Of a stretch of DNA of 30,838 bases, positions 360 to 30,838 are shown one piece after another (position 1 is the first letter of the stretch; each line of letters opens with the position of its first letter). The stretch lies in the IMG/VR virus record IMGVR_UViG_3300034101_002745, positions 1 to 30,838 of that record, one strand, 5' to 3'. Both the position numbers and the translations under genes were made by a program. The DNA comes from a virus. Below the pieces are notes generated by a model. The model had not been told where the DNA came from, ran no database searches, and worked only from the letters and a program-made list of their open reading frames with translations.

Positions 360-908
360 ATGAAACGAGCATTGATGATGGCAATCGGCGCGGCTTGCGC
401 TTGCGCGGTCGAAGCGGCGAATGAGTTTACCGGCACGCTGATTAGTAGGCCCGCTGAATGGAAGTATACCAAGACCAGCGGGTCAAGCACGCTCTCACAG
501 GGGTTCGGTGACTTCGTGTTTTGGCGGCACACGAACGGGACAAACGCCTATCAGATGACGACGGTTGCGGTTGACACGGCGGCACTAACGAACACGCAAC
601 AGCGGACGGTTAGTATCGGCGCAATCGTTGACGGGTTCGGAGATGTGCGGTCGTTTGCGGTGGTTCGGTTTCTGGCATTGCAGGCCGCATCAAACAACGT
701 CGGCAACGTGAAACTTGGCGGCGCGGCTGTTGACCCGTTCGGCGCATGGACGGTTGACGGCACAAACGGCGTAACGGTGGCACCGGGCGGCATGATGATG
801 ATCGTTGCACCGCAGGCCGGGTACACGGTCGGGACTGGAACAAACATCATGATCGAGGCCACAGGCGGCGCAGCAACGTACTATCTCTACATCGGCGGCA
901 ACGAGTAA
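360..908 (+). CDS. Tail-module beta-sandwich protein with N-terminal signal peptide
   Basis: 182 residues; ATG preceded by AAAGGGGGAACG, a good ribosome binding site. The N-terminus is a textbook Sec signal: MKR, a hydrophobic stretch of about 12 residues, and a likely cleavage after VEA (residues 17-19). The remainder is rich in Gly, Thr, Val and Asn. Its C-terminal half (AVDPFGAWTVDG, then VAPGGMMMIVAPQAGYTVGTGTN) resembles, from memory, small beta-sandwich proteins found near tail genes of many siphoviruses that normally lack a signal peptide. It lies directly after the tape measure gene, so a tail-tip or tail-decoration role is inferred. The export signal is unusual for a virion protein and is shared with the products at 2314 and 25967. 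A secreted non-virion role is the main alternative. Confidence 0.8.
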   Translation: MKRALMMAIGAACACAVEAANEFTGTLISRPAEWKYTKTSGSSTLSQGFGDFVFWRHTNGTNAYQMTTVAVDTAALTNTQQRTVSIGAIVDGFGDVRSFAVVRFLALQAASNNVGNVKLGGAAVDPFGAWTVDGTNGVTVAPGGMMMIVAPQAGYTVGTGTNIMIEATGGAATYYLYIGGNE

Positions 909-2313: not shown

Positions 2314-4992
2314 ATGAGAAAACTGACCGCAATCGCAATCGCCACACTGACAGCCTGGACGCTGTACGCCGCACCCGCAGACGACCGCAACTGGGCAACC
2401 CGCGTCAAGTGCGAGCTTCAGACGGCGGGCGGTGAGTCGCTCCAGACGCTGACATGGCAGCAAGGCACGACGCCGCTGCTATCGTTTGACCAGTACCGGC
2501 AGGGCAAGGAACTGTCGGTCACGAACGCGGCAAACACGAACGTGACCGCTATCCTGTTTATCGGCGCGTCGGCAACGAACTCCAGTTACGTGATAGTGAC
2601 CAATTACGCGGTTGTCAATAACGGCTTCCTCTTCAAGGTGCCGACCGTTGGCACGAACACGCAAGGGAACGCGGCGGGCTGGTGGTACGCGGTCTATTTT
2701 GAGCAAGCCGGGTCTCGCTACTGGACGGGAAACGGGCGGCTTGACATCATCAAAACCACGAGCACGGCTGACGGGCTGGCGTGGAGCGCGATTGTGCCGC
2801 CTGTCGTTATTACGGCAATCGACGCCACGAACGCCGCGCAATCGGTCGTCGGCGCGTCTGGGGCAGTCTGGCGGGTTGAATGGCTCGCCGGAGACACCAA
2901 CGAAGCCGCGCTCCGTGCAGCCGGCGACGTGGCGGGCAGCAACTACACCGACGCCGTTTCCGCTGGTAAGATCTCTACCAACGACGCCGCCTACCTCGCG
3001 GCCTGCACCAACTCGGCATACTACGCCGGGCTGACGACATACGTTTCCAACCGCGTGACGTACATCGGCACAAACGCCTTTACTGGCGGAGGCGGCACGG
3101 CGCAGACGAACGTCGCGCACAACTCCCTGCTTGGCATCCTCGGCGCTGGCACGCTGCACGTTTCGGACATCCAGACGAACCTGATTGCCGGTGCGTTGCA
3201 AGGCAGTAACGCGGTAACGATTTGGGGCGCGGACGGATTTAAAGCCGGATATGGCAGCAACATCGCGGCGGCGGTCAGTGCGTCTGTGGCAGGAGATGTT
3301 ATTGCAATTGGACCAGGCATTTTCTCTTCGGGCACTGCGGCTTTGCGGATGAACCCAAATACTACGCTTGTCGGCTCTGGCGCGTTGACGACACGCATCC
3401 TCGCGCCCGTAACATTTACAGGGACCGGAATCGTGCAACCAACCAATAATTGTCGGATTGAAAATCTCTCTATAGAAGCAGATGTGAGTCATGTCGTGGC
3501 AGGGGAATATGTGATGGCAATACACATAATCACAGGGTCAACCAATGTTTATATTCGAAACTGTAATTTAGTCGGAGCCGCTGACGGAGTCTACATGTAC
3601 TCGGCACAAGGGGTAAAAATTGAGAATTGCAAAATATGGTCAGCCTTTGATGGCATACTAATTTCTTCGGGCAGTGTGTATGATGTTGTAAATTGTGAAA
3701 TAATAGTAGACGCTACATTATGGCCTGGGGGGGCAGGTAGTATAGCGAATGGAGTAGTTGTAGTCGGTAGCACGGGCACGGTATCGTTTTGCACAATCAC
3801 GGTATCGGGATCAAGCGTGGAAAATTACGCCGTTTCATCCGCCGGCAGTGTAACTCTAAATATGTGTGTATTGTCTAGTTCTGGTTCAGGAACCGTTGCA
3901 GATATATATGTAATAAATGGGGTAACAACAGAATACGGTTGTAAATATACGACACAGATAGGCGCAGTCACACACGGCATATTGCGAGGCGACGGGTCAA
4001 CAATCACGGTCGGCGGCACGAACCTGCAAACCCTGCTCGACGGCAAGCTGAACACGAATGGCATGACTGACGCGATCCACGGCGCACGCGGCGGGCTTAA
4101 CCTGCACAACCTCGCAGATGCGAACGGCGCGGGGTTCTATTCGGCGGATCACTACAAGGCGGTAGAAAGCATGAAAGGCCGGACGAACGTATGGAATAGC
4201 GCGGCGGCGGGCGGCGTGACAAACGTCATTCTCTCCACGCCCATCTCCACACTATCCACCGGCGCGGTCGTGACGGTCACGCCGTCGCAATCCAAGCGCA
4301 TCTATCAGGTGTCAGCCTCATCTCCGATCACGCTGACCAACGACCTGACGCAACTCGCCGCGAACTGCACAACGAACTACGAATGGGAAACGTGGATCAA
4401 TTACACCGACACCAACGCCCTCTCGACCGTTTGGGATAGCCGCATCGCGTGGCAGCAGCAGACGCCTGATCTGACGGTTACTGGACTCTACAAGTTTGCG
4501 TTCTCGACGGCGTGCGGCACAAACATCGCTGGACGTCAGTCATATCCGACAGTGTACAAGACTCAAAAAATACCGGTCGGCTACGCAGTGGGAACCTCTT
4601 CTGGGACATATCTTGTGATGAACCGGATCAACTACACATTGCCCGCGCTGACAAACTCGATTTCGGTTATCGCCCCCGATGTTTATCCGAGAATCATAAG
4701 CACAACCTTATATGGCGGGATCGGTACAAATAGCGTTTTGCTGTCTATCGCACGCGGCAATTTCTACACGGCAAGCGCCACACCGATTAACACGACAAAA
4801 GAGTTCATCGAAATCAACACAACCACCACGGTCAAGTCTTTTTACCAACCGGCGCAGACTAGTAGAAACGATTTCGACTATTTTGTGGTTGCGCATAAAT
4901 ACGTCACCGGGGCAATCAATATCCCGTATGTCGATACACGGCCAGCCAACGAACTCGAAACCGCCGCCTATAACGCAGGCTGGAGGCCGTAA
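2314..4992 (+). CDS. Large secreted-type tail fibre/tailspike with right-handed beta-helix
   Basis: 892 residues; ATG after GAAGGGACACGCA. Residues 1-20 form a Sec-type signal (MRKLTAIAIATLTAWTLYA, cleavage at LYA/AP). Residues about 20-290 are Asn/Thr/Ala-rich and beta-like. Residues about 300-555 show pectate-lyase-type parallel beta-helix repeats: recurrent short rungs such as VYIRNCNLVGAADGVYMY and VKIENCKIWSAFDGILIS. Residues about 570-620 contain a helical neck (LQTLLDGKLNTNGMTDAIHG), then a C-terminal beta domain to residue 892. This architecture fits a trimeric receptor-binding fibre or spike, possibly with glycan-cleaving activity. The helix-coding part (about 3290-3970) is much more AT-rich than the flanks, indicating module exchange. 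A signal peptide on such a protein is odd. No neighbouring chaperone or intramolecular autoprotease motif was recognised. Confidence 0.85.
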   Translation: MRKLTAIAIATLTAWTLYAAPADDRNWATRVKCELQTAGGESLQTLTWQQGTTPLLSFDQYRQGKELSVTNAANTNVTAILFIGASATNSSYVIVTNYAVVNNGFLFKVPTVGTNTQGNAAGWWYAVYFEQAGSRYWTGNGRLDIIKTTSTADGLAWSAIVPPVVITAIDATNAAQSVVGASGAVWRVEWLAGDTNEAALRAAGDVAGSNYTDAVSAGKISTNDAAYLAACTNSAYYAGLTTYVSNRVTYIGTNAFTGGGGTAQTNVAHNSLLGILGAGTLHVSDIQTNLIAGALQGSNAVTIWGADGFKAGYGSNIAAAVSASVAGDVIAIGPGIFSSGTAALRMNPNTTLVGSGALTTRILAPVTFTGTGIVQPTNNCRIENLSIEADVSHVVAGEYVMAIHIITGSTNVYIRNCNLVGAADGVYMYSAQGVKIENCKIWSAFDGILISSGSVYDVVNCEIIVDATLWPGGAGSIANGVVVVGSTGTVSFCTITVSGSSVENYAVSSAGSVTLNMCVLSSSGSGTVADIYVINGVTTEYGCKYTTQIGAVTHGILRGDGSTITVGGTNLQTLLDGKLNTNGMTDAIHGARGGLNLHNLADANGAGFYSADHYKAVESMKGRTNVWNSAAAGGVTNVILSTPISTLSTGAVVTVTPSQSKRIYQVSASSPITLTNDLTQLAANCTTNYEWETWINYTDTNALSTVWDSRIAWQQQTPDLTVTGLYKFAFSTACGTNIAGRQSYPTVYKTQKIPVGYAVGTSSGTYLVMNRINYTLPALTNSISVIAPDVYPRIISTTLYGGIGTNSVLLSIARGNFYTASATPINTTKEFIEINTTTTVKSFYQPAQTSRNDFDYFVVAHKYVTGAINIPYVDTRPANELETAAYNAGWRP

Positions 4993-5025: not shown

Positions 5026-5349
5026 ATGGGAATCAATGAGGAGCTTTTAGGCCAGTACGCCTTATCTGCGTCCAAACTGTTTAGGGGTGAGTCACTCGAC
5101 CCGCTTACGCTTAACCAGTTTCACGGCGCGACTGGCCTGCTACTGTTGGAGGTCAACAAGCGGTGTCTAGGCCGATGTGAAACAGGGTCACTGAAAGACG
5201 CCGTTGTCAGAAACTTCCGCATGATCGTTGTTTGCGCGTCCATCGTGTCAGGCGTGATTGGTGTTTTTGCCACAGGCAAACTGCCAAAATTGAGCAGCTT
5301 GCTCAATGGTAGCGAAACAGTGGTCAAGGCGATGGTCAATGCGGACTGA
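5026..5349 (+). CDS. Small single-span membrane protein, holin candidate
   Basis: 107 residues. One clear hydrophobic segment at about residues 65-83 (MIVVCASIVSGVIGVFATG) follows a soluble helical N-terminal part and is followed by a short basic/polar tail. The nearest ribosome binding site-like sequence (GGAAAGGA) is somewhat far from the ATG; a 9-codon ORF at 4995-5024 ends just before this start and may couple translation. Position after the fibre gene and before two more tiny membrane-type proteins suggests a lysis cassette, so a holin or accessory lysis role is inferred. A virion-associated membrane protein is the alternative. The family is not recognised. Confidence 0.7.
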   Translation: MGINEELLGQYALSASKLFRGESLDPLTLNQFHGATGLLLLEVNKRCLGRCETGSLKDAVVRNFRMIVVCASIVSGVIGVFATGKLPKLSSLLNGSETVVKAMVNAD

Positions 5350-5362
5350 ACGGGGGTGCGAA

Positions 5363-5464
5363 ATGACCGCTGTAATCAGGTTTCTGGAATGGCTGTCCCG
5401 CGTGGGGCGGGCAATGGAGGCATGGGCGGACGGAGAATCGAAAACAACAGGAGGCGTGGAATGA
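5363..5464 (+). CDS. 33-residue amphipathic peptide
   Basis: A very short ORF (MTAVIRFLEWLSRVGRAM...) whose first 22 residues would form an amphipathic, tryptophan-containing helix (Trp10, Trp21) with Arg on one face. Its stop overlaps the next start as ATGA at 5461, and GGGGGTGCGAA lies before its ATG. The tight coupling within a row of small membrane proteins supports it as real. It could help disturb the membrane at lysis, but that is inference from composition and position. It may also serve only as a coupling leader for the next gene. Confidence 0.5.
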   Translation: MTAVIRFLEWLSRVGRAMEAWADGESKTTGGVE

Positions 5465-5586
5465 GTGCACAGTATGCAGCGTTGGGTGTTCAAGTGGCGG
5501 CGGCAATTCTGAAATGGTGGAGTGAACGCAAGGCCGCAAAAGCGAAAGCGAAAGCGGAGAAAGAGAAAGCGGCGGTGAAGCCGTGA
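5461..5586 (+). CDS. 41-residue membrane peptide with basic tail, lysis candidate
   Basis: Start ATG 5461 chosen for its AGGAGG ribosome binding site 7-8 nt upstream and the ATGA overlap; a longer version from GTG 5356 lacks a site and would encode an out-of-character Arg/Gly-rich leader. Residues 4-20 are hydrophobic (YAALGVQVAAAILKWW). The rest is a Lys/Ala/Glu helix (KAKAKAEKEKAAVKP). A short span plus a strongly charged C-terminus is the layout of small holin-like proteins. Function inferred only; the family is not recognised. Confidence 0.55.
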   Translation: MSAQYAALGVQVAAAILKWWSERKAAKAKAKAEKEKAAVKP

Positions 5587-6107
5587 GCGCGTCCGCAAAG
5601 TTCAAGCCGCACTTTACCGGCACCTATCAACTGGTTCCAGCTGGTAGCATGATGCGGCGGCGGCTTCTGTTCAAAGAGCCGGTCGCGCTATATGACTTCC
5701 AGAATGACTCGGTTGCGCCGCTGACCTTCTGGCGTGACATTGATTCGTTCATCCGCCCGTTTCGGCATTTCGACAAGTGCGACTTCGGATCGGTTCCGAC
5801 TTTGCTGCAATCGCTGGTCAGCCCGACATGCGCGGCGCGTGCGTTTATCATCCACGATGCGGCGTATGAGTTTCATAGCTGGTGGACCGAGGATGGGCTT
5901 GTAGAGTGTTCGCAGCGTGAGGCGGATGATATGCTCTACCACATGATGCGGGCTGAGGGTTGCAGCGTATGGCTCGCGTCGAAAGCGTGGGCTGGCGTCC
6001 GGGCTGGCGGCTGGACGTGCTGGCGCAAACCGATGGCGACAATCGAAAACGCCCGCCGTCTGGAGCGTGCATCAATGCCCGGCTTTGAGGATCAACCGGC
6101 GGACTAA
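5583..6107 (+). CDS. DUF1353-family phage protein
   Basis: 174 residues from a GTG that overlaps the preceding TGA. The central and C-terminal parts carry the DUF1353 pattern as I know it: a SVPTLLQSL segment, then AFIIHDAAYE (His-Asp), then READDMLYHMMRAEG, and a C-terminal AWAGVRAGGWTCW. The family is common in tailed phages beside lysis or tail genes and has no established biochemical role that I can name. The invariant HD and AD(D) residues would suit a metal site. It is the last gene before the major terminator and follows three small membrane-type proteins, so involvement in lysis is a reasonable guess. It is not a recognisable muramidase or amidase. Confidence 0.8.
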   Translation: MSASAKFKPHFTGTYQLVPAGSMMRRRLLFKEPVALYDFQNDSVAPLTFWRDIDSFIRPFRHFDKCDFGSVPTLLQSLVSPTCAARAFIIHDAAYEFHSWWTEDGLVECSQREADDMLYHMMRAEGCSVWLASKAWAGVRAGGWTCWRKPMATIENARRLERASMPGFEDQPAD

Positions 6108-21879: not shown

Positions 21880-22419
21880 ATGGGCTACATGCCGCAAACC
21901 ATAATCGCCGGTGAAACAATCTGGATTGCCGCCGCGAATACCGCGCAAGACAAGTCAGATATCACGATTGACGGCGCGACCCCGGCAGCCGGTTACACGC
22001 TCACTTTCCAGTTTGCCGCACAGCCGACGCCGATACCCGTTGCGGCGGTTGCCAACGGCGCGGGTACGGGCTGGACGATTGAAGTCACCGCCGCGCAGAC
22101 GCTGGCATGGAAGGCAGGAAGCGTGGCCTATGCCGCATACGCGACGCTCGCAGGCCGGTCATACGCTGTCGAGAGCGGCGCGATCACCGTCAAGCCGTCA
22201 CCGCTGGCGACATCCTCATGGACGGCGGTCATTGCGGCTTGCGATGCGGCTATCCTGACCTACGCCGGAGACCCGAACGGCAGCCTATCTGTGGACGGAA
22301 TGTCGGTATCGTATCGCAGCCTGACCGACCTGACAAACCTGCGTGACTACGCCCGCACGATGGAGCAACGAGAAACCGGCAACCGGCCCTTGCGGATTAT
22401 CAGAGCGAGGTTCACATGA
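21880..22419 (+). CDS. Head-tail joining protein: beta domain fused to gpW-like C-terminus
   Basis: 179 residues; GAAGGGGCGCGACA before the ATG. Residues about 1-110 form a Thr/Ala-rich beta-sandwich-like domain (TIIAGETIWIAAANTAQDKSDITIDG...TFQFAAQ...). The C-terminal ~65 residues (WTAVIAACDAAILTYAGDP, SLSVDGMSVSYRSLTDLTNLRDYARTMEQRE) resemble gpW, the small lambda head-completion protein, which is only 68 residues. The place between terminase and portal is gpW's place. The fusion suggests a connector protein with an added capsid- or DNA-facing domain. ATGA overlap with the portal gene. Confidence 0.7.
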   Translation: MGYMPQTIIAGETIWIAAANTAQDKSDITIDGATPAAGYTLTFQFAAQPTPIPVAAVANGAGTGWTIEVTAAQTLAWKAGSVAYAAYATLAGRSYAVESGAITVKPSPLATSSWTAVIAACDAAILTYAGDPNGSLSVDGMSVSYRSLTDLTNLRDYARTMEQRETGNRPLRIIRARFT

Positions 22420-24089
22420 CGTTTAACTGGCCTTGGGGAAAGAACCGAGCGCACCGCCCGCAATCATTCGGCGTGCGTGGTTTTCAGGCCGCGCAGACCG
22501 ACCGCCTGCTCGCCGGTTGGAAGTATGACGGGGGTTTCACGCCGTCTGAAATCTCGTCCTATCTCGACACGATCCGGGGCCGGTCGCGTCAAATGGCGAA
22601 GGACTCCCCACACTTCCGGCGCTGGTTGCAGCTTTCGGCAATCAACATCGTCGGGGAAGGTTTCGCGCTGAAATCAACGCCGCATGACGGGGCCCCGGGC
22701 GGGAAAGACTACAAGCTAGACGAACAGGCGGCGCGTTTCATTGAGTGGCATTGGTGGCGCTTCTGCAATTACCGCGACCCGTCAACCGGGCTGACATGGT
22801 GCGACGCGACCGGGCGCAAGACCGACGCCGAGATTGACCGATTAAACGTCAAGACGCAAAAGCGTGACGGCGAATACTTTATCCACATCATGCGCACATC
22901 GGCCAATCCATACGGCGTGGCGTGGCGCGTGTTGCGGCCTGATTGGTGCGATCACACTTACAACAGCACCGGGCTTGCGAATGGTAACATTGTTCACTGC
23001 GGCGTTGAAATGACAGAGCATGACCGCCGCCCGGTGGCGTACTACTTTCACACCGTCCCGAAAAACGCCTATGCCTTCAACGGGCGCGGGTTGCCGCTTG
23101 TCCGCATACCGGCAACCGAGATTATTCACGGCTTTACGCAAGAGGACGAAGACCAGCCGCGCGGCATCCCAGAAGGTTACGCCGGGCTGATGAAGCTGAA
23201 AATGATTGACGAGCTAGACCGGGCGGAGTTGACAGCGGCGCGTGAGGACGCCTGTTCAACGCGGTCTTATGAAGCAGATCGGGCGGCGGACATGGACGCC
23301 TTTTCAGACCTGACGCAGCCGGATAACTCCGACGCTGCACAGGCACTTATGGCCGAGAAAGAGCCAGGCCAATCCATGATCCTGCCGCCCGGTTGGCGTG
23401 AGAAGGTCAACACCCCGCAGCATCCGAACCGTGAGCACGCGCCGTTTAAGGACGGCATGTTGAAAGACGTGGCATCGGCGTTCGGCGTGGAGTATTCCAA
23501 CTACACGAACAACTGGAGCGGGGTATCATTCTCCAGCGTGCGCGTCGGGACAATCAGCGAGCGTGACGGGTACATCGTCCAACAGAATGACTTTATCAGC
23601 CAATGCAAGACGCCGCAATTTCTCGCATGGTTGCGGTCTTTCCTGTCGCTTTCGGTTTCTGGTCAACTGCCGATTGCCAAGTTTGACAAGTTCGCAGAGC
23701 ACGAATATCGCGGGCGGCGCTGGATGTGGGTTGACCCGATGAAGGACATGAACGCCGCTGTTATCGCCGTTGATCGCAAGTGGAAAACGAATACCCAAGT
23801 CGCGTCCGACATGGGGTCTGATTACGCTGACAATGTGGAAACATGGAAGCGCGAACAGTTGCTTGTTGCGGGTGACAGCAAGGAGAATGTGCCGGTTCTT
23901 AATGGAGCGCAGATCACGGCGGCGCTTGAAGTCATGCAGAATTATGCGGCTGGTGACATCGGAAAAGAGTCTGCGGTTGCGCTACTCACTGCGGCAGGCG
24001 TGCCAGCCGACGCCGCGCAAAACATGGTATCAAAACAGATCGTAAAGGAGGCAGACGATGAAGACGAAGACGCCACAGCAGACAAGTGA
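22416..24089 (+). CDS. Portal protein, lambda gpB family
   Basis: 557 residues, close to lambda gpB (533). Family features: GRSRQMAKDSPHFRRWLQLSAINIVGEGFAL near the N-terminus, HWWRFCNYRDPSTGLTW, REGEYFIH-type segment (QKRDGEYFIHIMR), PATEIIHGFTQEDEDQPRGIP, and the ELTAAREDACSTRSYEAD stem-like region, then FGVEYSNYTNNWSGVSFSSVRVGTISERDGY. It makes the dodecameric ring through which DNA enters and leaves the head. The C-terminus is acidic (KEADDEDEDATADK), and its last 32 nt overlap the protease-capsid gene. GAGG precedes the ATG. Confidence 0.9.
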   Translation: MTFNWPWGKNRAHRPQSFGVRGFQAAQTDRLLAGWKYDGGFTPSEISSYLDTIRGRSRQMAKDSPHFRRWLQLSAINIVGEGFALKSTPHDGAPGGKDYKLDEQAARFIEWHWWRFCNYRDPSTGLTWCDATGRKTDAEIDRLNVKTQKRDGEYFIHIMRTSANPYGVAWRVLRPDWCDHTYNSTGLANGNIVHCGVEMTEHDRRPVAYYFHTVPKNAYAFNGRGLPLVRIPATEIIHGFTQEDEDQPRGIPEGYAGLMKLKMIDELDRAELTAAREDACSTRSYEADRAADMDAFSDLTQPDNSDAAQALMAEKEPGQSMILPPGWREKVNTPQHPNREHAPFKDGMLKDVASAFGVEYSNYTNNWSGVSFSSVRVGTISERDGYIVQQNDFISQCKTPQFLAWLRSFLSLSVSGQLPIAKFDKFAEHEYRGRRWMWVDPMKDMNAAVIAVDRKWKTNTQVASDMGSDYADNVETWKREQLLVAGDSKENVPVLNGAQITAALEVMQNYAAGDIGKESAVALLTAAGVPADAAQNMVSKQIVKEADDEDEDATADK

Positions 24090-25893
24090 AAAGACCGAGG
24101 CACCTGATTTGATGATCCGGGCCGCAACGGTTGACATCCGCGCCGCAGATGGTGACGCGCCTGCACAGGTGCGCATGTCGGTTTCGAGTGAAGAGCCTGT
24201 TCTGACGATGGTCTACCTAAATGACAAGTGGCAGCGGGCATACGAGATCCTTGACCACGGCGAAGGCAGTATTGACATGAGCCGTTGCAAGGATGGCCTC
24301 GTGATTCTCGACCGGCATTTTGGCGATCAGGTCGGCTTGATGGCAGTTGAATTGAACAATCGTAAGATGGACGGGCCTGTCGAGTTTTGCTCCGGGCAGA
24401 GAGCGCAAGACATTTCAAAGGACGCGGCAAAAGGACTCCGGCGCAACGTATCAGTGGGATATCTGGTACGCGCCGGAGCTTATCGCATCGAAGGGGAAAA
24501 GGATGGCGTACCGGTGGTACGGGCGCTGTCTTGGACGCCCTACGAAGCGAGCTTTGAGCCGGTGCCTGCGGATACAACGGTCGGCGTAAACCGCGCCGCC
24601 AATCACACCAAAACGGCTGTTGAAACAGCCAAGGAGATCAGAATGGAACCCAAAGACATGGCCGCTCTTTTTGAGCGTGCGGCGAAGTTTGGTATCGGCG
24701 CGGACAAGGTTTCGGCGCTGGTTGCGGACGGCAAGGGCCGGGCCGAGTTGGACGCGATGATCGTGGACAAGCAGGCGGATGACCTCGCCAGCGAGCGCAA
24801 GACCCTTGTGGAGTTCAAGAGCCGCAAGACGGATCGCGCCGAGGCTGGAACCCCGCCCGCCGTTGGCTCGGCTGAAATCGGACTGACCCCGGCGCAGGCG
24901 CGGTCGTACAGCATGCTGCGTGCGATCCAAGGCCAGATTCCGAATTCCGGTGTGGACGCCGGTTTCGAGCGTGAGTGCTCGCAGGAAGTCGCCAAGAAGC
25001 TCGGTCGTGCGGCTCGCGGTTTCTTCGTCCCTTACGATGTGCAGGTTGCCAAGCGCGATTTGCAGATTGCCGGGGCCGGAACCGGATCGAAGTTCGTCGC
25101 CACGAACCTGCTCGCCGGTGACTTTATCACCGCGCTGCGTGCGAACATGGCACTCCCCAAGCTGGGCGTGCGCGTTCTGTCCGGTCTTGTCGGTGACATC
25201 GCCATTCCGAAGGGCGCGGCGGTCACGGCAACGTGGGGCATTGAGACGGCTGACGCCGACGAAGTGACTCCCGTTCTTTCGCAGGTCACTGGCACGCCGA
25301 AGACGGTCAAGGCCCGGACGAATATCAGCCGCAAGCTGATTATGCAGTCCAGTCTGGACGTGGAAGCGTTTGTCCAGAACGAGCTGGCTGTTGCGCTGGC
25401 CGTTGCGATTGACAAGGCCGCGTTCAACGGCGCGGGCACCGCCGAGCCGACTGGACTTCTGACCGGCCCGATCAGCACGGACGTCGCTGTCACCGCTGGC
25501 ACGCCGACCTACGCCGAGATGTGCAACCTCGTCGCCACGGTGACGGGGAAGAACGTCAATCTGGACATGCTCAAGTTCGCCGTGACGAACGAAGTGTTCT
25601 GGAAGTTGGCTGCTACGGCGACCAGCACGAACGGGCCGCTGTTCATTGCCGACATCCTGTCCGGCAAGATCATGGGCCGCGAGACGGTGGTTTCCGAAAA
25701 CGTGACCGCAAACTACGGCTTCATCGGCGACTGGTCGCAGATGATCCTCGGCATGTGGGGCAATGGCCTCGACATCCTGGTTGACCCCTACAGCGGCAGC
25801 AGCAGCGGGCTGGTGAAGGTTGTCAGCTTCATGGACGCCGACATCATGGTTGCGCAGGCCGACGCCTTCGCACACGCCGACATCACTTCGTAG
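24058..25893 (+). CDS. HK97-type prohead protease fused to major capsid protein
   Basis: 611 residues, ATG behind AAAGGAGGCAGACG. Residues about 18-180 are an S78-type prohead protease with likely catalytic His87 (LDRHFGDQ) and Ser132 (RNVSVGYLV). Residues about 195-290 are a charged helical delta/scaffold region (MAALFERAAKFG...LVEFKSRKTDRAE). Residues about 290-611 are the HK97-fold capsid: YDVQVAKRDLQ, LLAGDFITALRANMALPKLGVRVLSG, ISRKLIMQSSLDVEAFVQNELAVALAVAIDKAAFNG, and a C-terminal EVFWKLAATATST...GFIGDWSQMILGMWGNGLDILVDPYS. Protease, scaffold and shell are in one frame; self-cleavage must free the shell protein. An internal ribosome binding site at 24631 offers a second route. Confidence 0.92.
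   Translation: MKTKTPQQTSEKTEAPDLMIRAATVDIRAADGDAPAQVRMSVSSEEPVLTMVYLNDKWQRAYEILDHGEGSIDMSRCKDGLVILDRHFGDQVGLMAVELNNRKMDGPVEFCSGQRAQDISKDAAKGLRRNVSVGYLVRAGAYRIEGEKDGVPVVRALSWTPYEASFEPVPADTTVGVNRAANHTKTAVETAKEIRMEPKDMAALFERAAKFGIGADKVSALVADGKGRAELDAMIVDKQADDLASERKTLVEFKSRKTDRAEAGTPPAVGSAEIGLTPAQARSYSMLRAIQGQIPNSGVDAGFERECSQEVAKKLGRAARGFFVPYDVQVAKRDLQIAGAGTGSKFVATNLLAGDFITALRANMALPKLGVRVLSGLVGDIAIPKGAAVTATWGIETADADEVTPVLSQVTGTPKTVKARTNISRKLIMQSSLDVEAFVQNELAVALAVAIDKAAFNGAGTAEPTGLLTGPISTDVAVTAGTPTYAEMCNLVATVTGKNVNLDMLKFAVTNEVFWKLAATATSTNGPLFIADILSGKIMGRETVVSENVTANYGFIGDWSQMILGMWGNGLDILVDPYSGSSSGLVKVVSFMDADIMVAQADAFAHADITS
24631..24645 (+). promoter_or_regulatory. Internal ribosome binding site and start for free scaffold-capsid protein
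   Basis: AAGGAG (24631-24636), 6 nt, then ATG (24643-24645) in frame with the fusion gene at codon 196, exactly at the junction between protease and delta/scaffold region. Initiation here would give a 416-residue protein, close to the usual length of HK97-type capsid precursors. This resembles the nested scaffold start inside lambda gene C. Confidence 0.65.
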
Positions 25894-25940: not shown

Positions 25941-25966
25941 TCACACAGCAAAAAGGAGATGACAAA

Positions 25967-26419
25967 ATGAAGCGATATCTGATTGCGGGCCTGTTGCTCG
26001 CTACGTTTGCGCTGACTTCGCACGCCGCGCTTGACGTGTATGACTCCGTGACCGTCAGCACGCTCGGCAACCCGACGCTTGTGCCGGTCGGCACAACGGT
26101 CACGAATACCGCCGTGGACGTTGCCAACTGCAAGGGCATCGGGAACCTGATTATCACGGTCGGGGCCGGGGCTACGAACGCGGCTGACTACGTTTGCACC
26201 GTCACGCTCAAACACTCGGCGGCAAGCGCGGGAACGTATACGACCGTCACCAATGGCACCGGTACTGCGATGGTTTTCACGACCGCCGCAAGCAACGGAG
26301 TCGGGCGCGTCGTATCGAGCAAACTGGAAGCGGAAGTCTTGAAACGCTACCTGCGGCTTGAAGGCGCGGCGGTCGGCCAAGACGGAAGTTTCGGCGGCGT
26401 ATTCCTCTACAGCAAGTAA
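25967..26419 (+). CDS. Decoration-like head protein with N-terminal signal peptide
   Basis: 150 residues; ATG 25967 behind AAAAGGAGATGACAAA. An in-frame start at 25820 would overlap the capsid gene and is rejected. Residues 1-20 (MKRYLIAGLLLATFALTSHA) are a classic Sec signal with an SHA/A cleavage site. The mature part (TVDVANCKGIGNLIITVGAGATNAADYVCTVTLKHSAAS..., ending KRYLRLEGAAVGQDGSFGGVFLYSK) matches, from memory, small beta-sandwich proteins encoded right after major capsid genes, normally without a signal. Head decoration is inferred from position; export is implied by sequence, so the two conflict. One Cys pair (mature) could form a disulphide outside the cytoplasm. Confidence 0.8.
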   Translation: MKRYLIAGLLLATFALTSHAALDVYDSVTVSTLGNPTLVPVGTTVTNTAVDVANCKGIGNLIITVGAGATNAADYVCTVTLKHSAASAGTYTTVTNGTGTAMVFTTAASNGVGRVVSSKLEAEVLKRYLRLEGAAVGQDGSFGGVFLYSK

Positions 26420-26432
26420 CAATGGGAAGCAC

Positions 26433-26765
26433 ATGTCCGACATCGGCACAACGGCTTTCAATGCGATATACGGCGCAATGCCAGAGGTACGGGCTACCGC
26501 AACCTTTGGCCGCACGGTAGTCGCTCGTTGCCTTTGCTCCGGTGTCGGGCAAACCCGCAACCCTACCGAGATAGGGGCGGGCATTGAGTACGATGTTAGT
26601 CTGCGGATTGTGGCGACGGATGATCCGGCAACCGGGTCAAAGCTAGGCGACATCGTGAAGGTGACGGCATACGGTCAGTCCGTGGCAACGTCTTATCGGA
26701 TCACGGGCAAGCGGGCAATCGGCGGCATTATCAATTTCTCACTGGAGTATCAGCATGGCCAGTAG
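26433..26765 (+). CDS. Head-tail connector, FII position
   Basis: 110 residues. ATG 26433 chosen (weak site GGGAAG upstream); longer in-frame starts run into the preceding gene. MSDIGTTAFNAIYGAMPEVRATATFGRTVVARCLCSG, then a beta-rich body (YDVSLRIVATDD, DIVKVTAYGQ, YRITGKRAIGGIINFSLEYQ). Length and place match lambda gpFII (117 residues), the protein that completes the head and binds the tail; sequence identity to it is not evident. Overlaps the next gene by 11 nt. Confidence 0.65.
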   Translation: MSDIGTTAFNAIYGAMPEVRATATFGRTVVARCLCSGVGQTRNPTEIGAGIEYDVSLRIVATDDPATGSKLGDIVKVTAYGQSVATSYRITGKRAIGGIINFSLEYQHGQ

Positions 26766-29328: not shown

Positions 29329-30838
29329 GAAACTCACGCTTGTAGTTGACGCAAAGAACAAGACAAAAGCGGCACTCGCTTCGGTCGGTGACTCACTGGC
29401 GAAAATAGGGCAGACCGCGCTGAACGTCGGCAAGATGATCGCGGGCGCATTGACCGGGGCGGCGGTGGCGGTGGCGGCGTTTGCTGGCAAAGCGCTGTCT
29501 GCATGGGCTGCGCAAGAAACCGCCTCGCGTGCTATGGCTGGAGCACTAACAGCATACGGAGAATCCGCCGTGAAAGCGTTGCCGGAACTTGAGCGTCTCG
29601 CGTCGGCAATTCAAGACGAAACCGGGGCTGCTGATGAATCAACGCTTGCGGGCATGGCAAAAATGCGGATGCTCGGCGTTCAGACTTCCAAGCTTGGCGA
29701 GGCCGCAAAAGCCGTTATCGCGTTGAAGGCTGTCGGTATGGAAGAGGCGGCGGCACAGAAGGCCGTGGCGATGGCGATGCAAGGCAATTACACGCTGTTG
29801 CAAAGATACGTGCCAGCATTGAGAGACGCCGCAGACGAAACCGAAAAAGCCCGAATCGTCAATCAGCTTTTTGCGGCGGGCTACGAACAGCAGAAAGGGC
29901 TACTCAATACTACAGGCGGCGCGTGGGCTGCATTGAAGGGGCGCGTCGGGGATTTATGGGAAGAGGTCGGCAAGGCAATCGCGCAGAATGGAGACCTTGT
30001 TGCGGTGCTCACGAAAGCCGGAAACAAGGTCAAAGAACTGACCGCTGACTTTGCGAACTGGGTTTCAAACGGCGGCATGATTGATGCAATCGCAACGGCG
30101 CAGCAGTTTGGCGAAAACATGCGCAGCACCTTTACGCTTGCGGGTGTGTACGCAAAAGGGTTTTTTAAGGGCGGGATCACCGAACCGGCAGCACAGGCGT
30201 TTCAGTATTTGGGAAGCGTGGCGGTAGCGGCTTGGGATGTGCTGAAAGATTTATTCAGCGGGAAAAGCGTAGAGGCATCGTTTCAGACGTTCAAGTCCTC
30301 GCTTGCCGGTGGGTTTGTTGAAGAGTCACAGGCGTTCAAGACGATGTATGCAGAGTTGGACGCCGAACGCGCAAAGCACACCGGCGAGACAGAGAGAATC
30401 CAAGCAGACCTCATTGGAAAGCTGAAACAGAATAACGAGAAGCGGGTGTCTGACGCAACATCCGCATTACAGGAAATCACAGAGGCAGAGCAAGCCGCAG
30501 CAGATGCACGGATAGCCGCAGAAAAAGAGAAAAACGAAGAACTGAAAAAGTTGTCGGGTGAGCGGGCGCAATTAGAACAGGACTACGCAAAAGCTCTTGA
30601 CGACGAACAATCAAAGGCATGGGAAAACCGAAAGAAAGAACTCCAAGACGAGCTGGAGCTGAAAGAGGAAATCGCAAAAGCTGCAATCAAAGACGTGATC
30701 GCAGAAGCGAAGGCGAAAAAGGGCAGCGACAAAGACGCTGAACGCATGGAAGGCAGAGAGGCACGCAAGGCGGCGCGGCTGGGCGCACGTTTTGACCGAG
30801 GGGAGAGCATCGGAAAGGGTGCCGAGGAATGGTTAAAC
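29318..30838 (+). CDS. Tape measure protein, N-terminal 507 residues (continues at base 176)
   Basis: ATG 29318 overlaps the previous gene by 11 nt, with GAAAGG 9 nt upstream. No stop occurs before the window end; the frame continues at 176-349 for 564 residues in total. The N-terminus KLTLVVDAKNKTKAALASVGDSLAKIGQTAL and a hydrophobic segment (IAGALTGAAVAVAAFAG, about residues 47-63) are typical of tape measure proteins, as is the AIQDETGAADESTLAGMAKMRMLG...AAKAVIALKAVGMEEAAAQKAVAMAMQGNYTLLQRYVP region of the phage prophage-tail-length family. Residues from about 345 form a long charged coiled coil (ELDAERAKHTGETERIQADLIGKLKQ...). It sets tail length and aids DNA entry. Confidence 0.9.
   Translation, partial: MADRKLTLVVDAKNKTKAALASVGDSLAKIGQTALNVGKMIAGALTGAAVAVAAFAGKALSAWAAQETASRAMAGALTAYGESAVKALPELERLASAIQDETGAADESTLAGMAKMRMLGVQTSKLGEAAKAVIALKAVGMEEAAAQKAVAMAMQGNYTLLQRYVPALRDAADETEKARIVNQLFAAGYEQQKGLLNTTGGAWAALKGRVGDLWEEVGKAIAQNGDLVAVLTKAGNKVKELTADFANWVSNGGMIDAIATAQQFGENMRSTFTLAGVYAKGFFKGGITEPAAQAFQYLGSVAVAAWDVLKDLFSGKSVEASFQTFKSSLAGGFVEESQAFKTMYAELDAERAKHTGETERIQADLIGKLKQNNEKRVSDATSALQEITEAEQAAADARIAAEKEKNEELKKLSGERAQLEQDYAKALDDEQSKAWENRKKELQDELELKEEIAKAAIKDVIAEAKAKKGSDKDAERMEGREARKAARLGARFDRGESIGKGAEEWLN
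30664..30838. repeat. Terminal direct repeat, right copy
   Basis: Same 175 bases as 1-175 apart from 30790 (T instead of C) and 30811 (C instead of T). See the left copy for interpretation: the unique genome length is 30663 bp. Confidence 0.95.

Follow-up and report, generated by a model that had tools for sequence, protein, structure and literature searches.

A predicted Sec signal peptide, kept by selection, on a capsid cement-family protein of tailed phages

The heads of tailed phages are taught to be wholly cytoplasmic products, which raises the question of what a Sec-type signal peptide would do on a protein encoded beside the major capsid protein (MCP) of such a phage. The gene concerned (25967-26419, plus strand; ATG at 25967, stop at 26417-26419; 150 aa) lies in a window of 30,838 nucleotides, a term used here for the whole stretch of viral DNA analyzed (IMG/VR record IMGVR_UViG_3300034101_002745). 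Since a 175-base direct repeat (98.9%) is present at the termini (1-175 and 30664-30838) and the tape-measure gene crosses both ends, the window probably represents a complete genome, circularly permuted and about 30.66 kb long. The phage is tailed and has a terminase, a portal and an HK97-type capsid. Upstream, on the same strand, are a gene for a portal protein without signal (22416-24089; Pfam Phage_portal_2, E 1e-65) and, as the direct neighbour, a protease-MCP fusion gene (24058-25893; phrog_617, E 1.5e-88; Pfam Phage_capsid, E 4.5e-31) whose product carries an N-terminal protease domain (phrog_617/phrog_4523). The gene under study is the first after the MCP gene and precedes the genes leading to the tape measure. 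A sequence-only reading of this DNA had located it between the MCP and connector genes; the MCP side is borne out by family matches, whereas the connector side is an assignment by position, the following gene (26433-26765, 110 aa) giving no match in the family search. Elsewhere in the window, a DUF1353 protein (5583-6107; Pfam E 1e-9) is encoded close to small putative membrane genes (5026-5586); this is possibly the lysis region, and no endolysin was recognised.

The protein starts with a predicted Sec signal peptide, MKRYLIAGLLLATFALTSHA (25967-26026, plus strand), made of a KR n-region, a hydrophobic and uncharged core and an SHA-A junction at which cleavage is predicted. Signals were scored with a rule of our own that combines a net positive n-region, a nine-residue uncharged hydrophobic window and the -3/-1 rule (cut 3.4), calibrated on E. 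coli K-12 proteins whose location is known, of which 17/17 Sec, 0/15 inner-membrane and 1/54 cytosolic (mqo) proteins passed. The window protein passed with a score of 3.87, the lowest in its family; the cut preferred by the rule lies a few residues upstream of SHA-A, which was taken from the homologous junction, where the -3/-1 rule is kept. The basic n-region, uncharged core, small -3 and -1 residues and length within 15-30 residues are those of Sec/signal peptidase I substrates. A lipobox cysteine at +1, as in lipoproteins cut by signal peptidase II, is absent from the junction in all 22 homologues described below, and the search for a twin-arginine (Tat) motif was likewise negative, the window protein starting with MKRYL and RR occurring in 0/22 homologues. 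Disulfide formation was considered as a reason for export and rejected, since the two cysteines of the window protein are not conserved.

Homologues were sought by gathering related MCP genes from viral contigs and species genomes and reading the gene 3' of each; direct tblastn of the protein against the phage collection gave no match, and the homologues thus came mostly from MCP neighbourhoods. Within one MCP clade, a signal of 18-24 residues precedes this body in 22/22 distinct homologues. Aligned at the homologous junction, they show Ala (21) or Gly (one) at position -1 and a small residue at position -3 in all 22 (A16, S2, V2, C1, G1). The signals themselves have diverged, with a median pairwise identity of 0.28 over their first 18 residues. 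Between the window and its relative L018, 12 of 20 signal residues differ with the signal character preserved throughout, and the mature start LDVYDSVTV is kept. Random substitution down to 25-35% identity left 3-7% of sequences passing the rule, against 21/21 of the natural sequences tested. Such retention at low identity indicates that the signal is under selection, and it is a better argument than the comparison with other forward ORFs of the same contigs, of which 4/190 passed (three of the four being special-case signal-bearing genes); the Fisher value for 22/22 against 4/190 (3e-26) ignores shared ancestry and is inflated by relatedness. One protein that passes the rule, L015 (Persinger gp6), is not a cement homologue and was counted as a false positive, and the passes at L026:3635, L078:13594 and L056/L076 (reverse-strand ORFs) look false as well.

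Could the signal be an artefact, produced by a misplaced start codon or by hydrophobic residues that fell together by chance? An in-frame GTG at codon 24 would offer a later start. However, AAAGGAGATGACAAA lies directly 5' of the ATG, with a ribosome binding site, AAAGGAGATGAC (25951-25963, plus strand), that places the start codon ahead of the signal. In 22/22 homologues an SD-like motif stands 3-15 nt 5' of the start codon that opens the signal, as against 3/54 of the later in-frame start codons; no SD accompanies the later in-frame starts of the gene in the window. Together with the conservation in 22 phages and the drift test, this rules out a chance stretch or wrong start, an explanation that we regard as scarcely credible. 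These comparisons show a predicted Sec-type, cleavable signal, correctly started and kept by selection on a cement-family protein. The complete Sec signal proposed from the sequence alone is thereby confirmed.

The identity of the body was addressed by structure prediction and profile searches. AlphaFold2 modelled the full protein with a mean pLDDT of 85.2 and a pTM of 0.74, as a detached helix (residues 3-25), a linker with pLDDT below 50 (residues 21-25) and a beta-sandwich with strands over residues 28-149 (pLDDT ~90), in agreement with the beta-sandwich-like body suggested earlier. The model has the eight strands and ~125 residues of a jellyroll cement. The predicted mature domain (ALDVYDSVTV...FLYSK; 26027-26416, plus strand) matches phrog_5707 (residues 23-133, E 5e-12). 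VIA-align gave Z scores of 9.9 for XepA (104 residues, the best match), 9.4 for YomS, 8.7 for the BPP-1 cement, 8.0 for Carin1 and 7.9 for the KHP40 cement, a Z near 8 being weak evidence when taken alone; the top Foldseek matches in the PDB were TNF-like lectins. A profile (A4) built from signal-less members and mature bodies of signal-bearing ones was searched against 177,635 PDB sequences, and ranked first the BPP-1 cementing protein (3j4u_H, E 1.5e-4) and second the Carin1 Capsid Decoration Protein (8cjz_B, E 0.04). A profile of the signal-bearing group alone found no cement protein in the PDB, and the cement link therefore depends on the signal-less members. The gene adjoins the MCP gene, the place expected of the cement family. 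Because fold, homology and gene place agree, the body is assigned, by sequence and model, to the BPP-1/Carin1 family of jellyroll capsid cements. In the BPP-1 virion, where the trace of the cement protein begins at Met1, the protein dimerises at the two-fold axes and its N-terminal loop packs on the capsid (PMC3863775); cleavage after SHA would give the window protein an N-terminus comparable to that Met1.

The distribution of the signal was compared with an MCP tree of 51 rows (without L069). The signal-bearing clade (bootstrap 100/SH-aLRT 100, stem 1.08) contains 22 members with the signal, two without the gene and none with a signal-less version; the signal-less homologue of S-LBS1 falls outside. 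A second, distant MCP lineage (L070/L071) also carries a signal, on a longer cement-like body of ~200 aa encoded after the MCP gene (L070:3900-4640, L071:9225-9836). Two changes account for this distribution; although the tree is compatible with gain or loss, it is read most simply as a gain at the clade's base. Outside the clade, nine same-position proteins have the body without the signal. A body HMM of the signal-bearing group found four of these nine (E 5e-9 to 3e-5), the best of about 1000 shuffled controls reaching E 9e-4, a level at which this HMM alone does not secure the homology of L057/L009; aligned by hhalign, the profiles of the two groups gave a probability of 96% (E 1e-9). The possibility that same-body homologues would all start after residue 20, held to speak against a signal, thus applies outside the clade and fails within it. 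Behind a single signal, the cement body is duplicated in tandem in L025/L026 and L032/L033, an arrangement that, judged by analogy, fits a fused dimer and would be consistent with the dimeric BPP-1 cement. The gene is absent from its MCP-adjacent place in clade members L079 and L089, and hence is dispensable; it is likewise absent from several host-class prophages (L079/L090, L089, L095, L098, L101). MCP-like frames with one or two internal TAA codons were observed in host-class prophages L087, L097 and L100 (G434, G089, G572), as the outcome of recoding, frame errors or decay.

Of the metagenome-assembled genomes (MAGs) that contain prophages with the gene, some are named Lentisphaerae and Kiritimatiellae and others come from the rumen, and by these prophages the hosts are Kiritimatiellae/Lentisphaerae-type bacteria. 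Signal peptidase I (PF10502, above cut-off) is encoded in 3/3 host genomes. No second copy of the cement gene was found in whole host genomes, and among 387 genomes of the phylum the one convincing match was the known prophage itself, indicating that this is not a host gene.

On this basis, a route can be proposed in which the cement protein, with its BPP-1-type jellyroll body, would be made as a Sec preprotein, exported by the host SecA/SecYEG and cut after SHA by the host signal peptidase I, the mature jellyroll, starting ALDVYD, folding outside the cytoplasm. Heads would meanwhile be assembled and filled in the cytoplasm without cement, and lysis would mix the compartments and let the exported cement bind their outer surface, so that virion maturation would end, outside the cytoplasm, with decoration of the head. 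That the host exports and cleaves the protein is predicted from sequence with good confidence. Coating of the heads by mature cement once lysis has brought the compartments together may be held with moderate confidence, since it is to the outside of finished heads that cement binds. As a whole, this reading of an exported, cleaved cement that coats heads at lysis has, in our estimate, about an even chance of being right. The earlier expectation that export should remove the protein from assembly is not a necessary one, as a protein that binds the head exterior could join after lysis. A precedent to the opposite effect is phage lambda, whose heads break down during DNA packaging when they lack cement (PMC3863775); were the same true here, cement would be needed in the cytoplasm and export would be harmful.

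The main rival to coating at lysis accepts export and cleavage and places the product outside the virion: the cement jellyroll would have been repurposed as a secreted or periplasmic protein resembling XepA, perhaps a glycan-binding adhesin, a superinfection blocker or a lysis helper. Jellyrolls are common, and the model aligns best with one of them, XepA (Z 9.9), a protein exported while the phage develops and missing from mature particles (PMC6834076). The TNF-like lectins at the top of the Foldseek matches and the loss of the gene in L079/L089 point the same way. However, the body is still recognisably cement, its tandem forms mimic the cement dimer, and in every member the gene sits beside that of the MCP and tracks the MCP lineage; moreover, XepA is encoded in a lytic cassette, and the window gene is not. 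We consider repurposing unlikely, though a real contender.

Two further alternatives differ in how the signal is used. Rather than directing export, the short hydrophobic leader might keep the cement away from proheads, or tethered to the inner membrane; cleavage, perhaps by the prohead protease domain that the phage fuses to its MCP, would then be followed by decoration in the cytoplasm. The N-terminal protease domain of the MCP product and the cytoplasmic maturation of normal tailed-phage heads are in keeping with such a role. By contrast, the leader obeys the rules of host Sec (K/R start, uncharged hydrophobic core, AxA-type junction), a pattern that a prohead-protease site would not be expected to show, and Sec would take in a hydrophobic helix of this kind if it were free; this explanation is accordingly judged improbable. 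The signal might otherwise be an uncleaved anchor, with heads finished at the inner membrane. The single helix modelled for residues 3-25 would suit an anchor, but the small -3/-1 residues at the homologous junction in 22/22, the junction linker with pLDDT below 50 and the capsid contact made by the N-terminus of the BPP-1 cement (PMC3863775) make it highly improbable. The same considerations apply to the suggestion that the signal is uncleaved and masked. Since the N-terminal loop of the BPP-1 cement packs on the capsid, an extra hydrophobic helix would be awkward there (PMC3863775), and with the -3/-1 rule kept, this becomes the least likely of the options that the sequence-only reading had listed. 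The released decoy or receptor blocker also named there is a conjectural candidate role. What stands of that reading is a conserved Sec-type signal on a head-decoration protein, whose body is tied to cement by homology.

Signals are not confined to the cement gene. In the window, a 182-aa protein matching phrog_22694 (360-908, plus strand) begins with MKRALMMAIGAACACAVEA followed by ANEF. A 39% identical homologue with its own signal is encoded right after the cement gene in L036/L037 (L036:3642-4190), and that of L024 (L024:5343-5797) lacks a signal, its start codon lying at the body behind a ribosome site of its own; this protein repeats the same on/off pattern of the signal as the cement. 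These homologues came by tblastn in the loci already collected, a related-locus search with the protein having returned nothing; its AlphaFold2 model (pLDDT 34) was discarded. An 892-aa fibre/tailspike-like protein (2314-4992, plus strand), with beta-helix-like repeats judged by eye and no family match, carries MRKLTAIAIATLTAWTLYA before APADDRNWATR, and in L018 (L018:9510-9625) a different signal, MNTMQRNARTLTAILALVTGAATLTRA, precedes an identical APADDRNWATR. Tail-distal genes of host prophages also bear Sec-like signals: in G001 those for a 497-aa protein and a LamG-domain protein (L120:2106-3596 and L120:1354-2106, minus strand, one with Laminin_G_3), and in G002 those for two small proteins (L123:6630-6962 and L123:8618-9187). 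The terminase, portal and MCP of the host prophages have no signals. The proteins with signals thus look exterior or accessory, and their putative place in the virion is read from gene position. Signal-bearing tail-fibre-like proteins may share the route of the cement. Extended to the whole clade, the exterior proteins (cement, spike/fibre and perhaps the 360-908 protein) would all travel via Sec and be added outside the cytoplasm, the virion reaching its final form after lysis; this generalisation is tentative and, at present, somewhat doubtful. In L055, a distant relative with signal-less cement, three successive signal genes (fibre-like, LamG-like and 161 aa) lie between portal and MCP (L055:4832-6803).

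In the open-licence literature, neither a tailed-phage decoration protein with a signal peptide nor any phage of this clade was found to have been described. A selected Sec signal on a cement would mean either that maturation is split between the cytoplasm and the periplasm or medium, or that a capsid protein now serves as a secreted factor, and within the literature searched either outcome would be new for tailed phages. On the practical side, annotation pipelines that filter on signal peptides would drop such structural genes from the virion proteome.

Among known systems, the coat proteins of filamentous phages are virion proteins made with Sec signals; their assembly takes place in the membrane, and these phages are not tailed. 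The window phage shares with them a Sec signal on a putative virion protein and differs in being tailed, with an HK97-type capsid. XepA and YomS of Bacillus subtilis prophages (6i56, 6i5o) share the jellyroll fold; the available part of the XepA source mentions no signal peptide and places the gene in a lysis cassette, unlike the window gene, which directly follows that of the MCP (PMC6834076). The homologue of Synechococcus phage S-LBS1 (SLBS1_A07) has the same body and MCP neighbourhood, but starts at the body. For phrog_5707, the body is common to both and 14/16 signal-bearing members match; the match begins at profile position 4, right after the signal, which makes the family model signal-less. 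The Carin1 decoration protein is alike in its jellyroll (Z 8.0 with 8cjz_A, 18% identity) and its weak profile match, the solved chain aligning with model residues 28-148, that is, the body only. The BPP-1 cement Bbp16 (3j4u) resembles the window protein in its jellyroll (Z 8.7, rmsd 3.2 over 109 residues, 18% identity), in a mature length of ~130 residues and in profile homology, and differs in having no signal peptide: its Met1 is traced in the virion, whereas in the window protein a predicted 20-residue Sec signal precedes the body.
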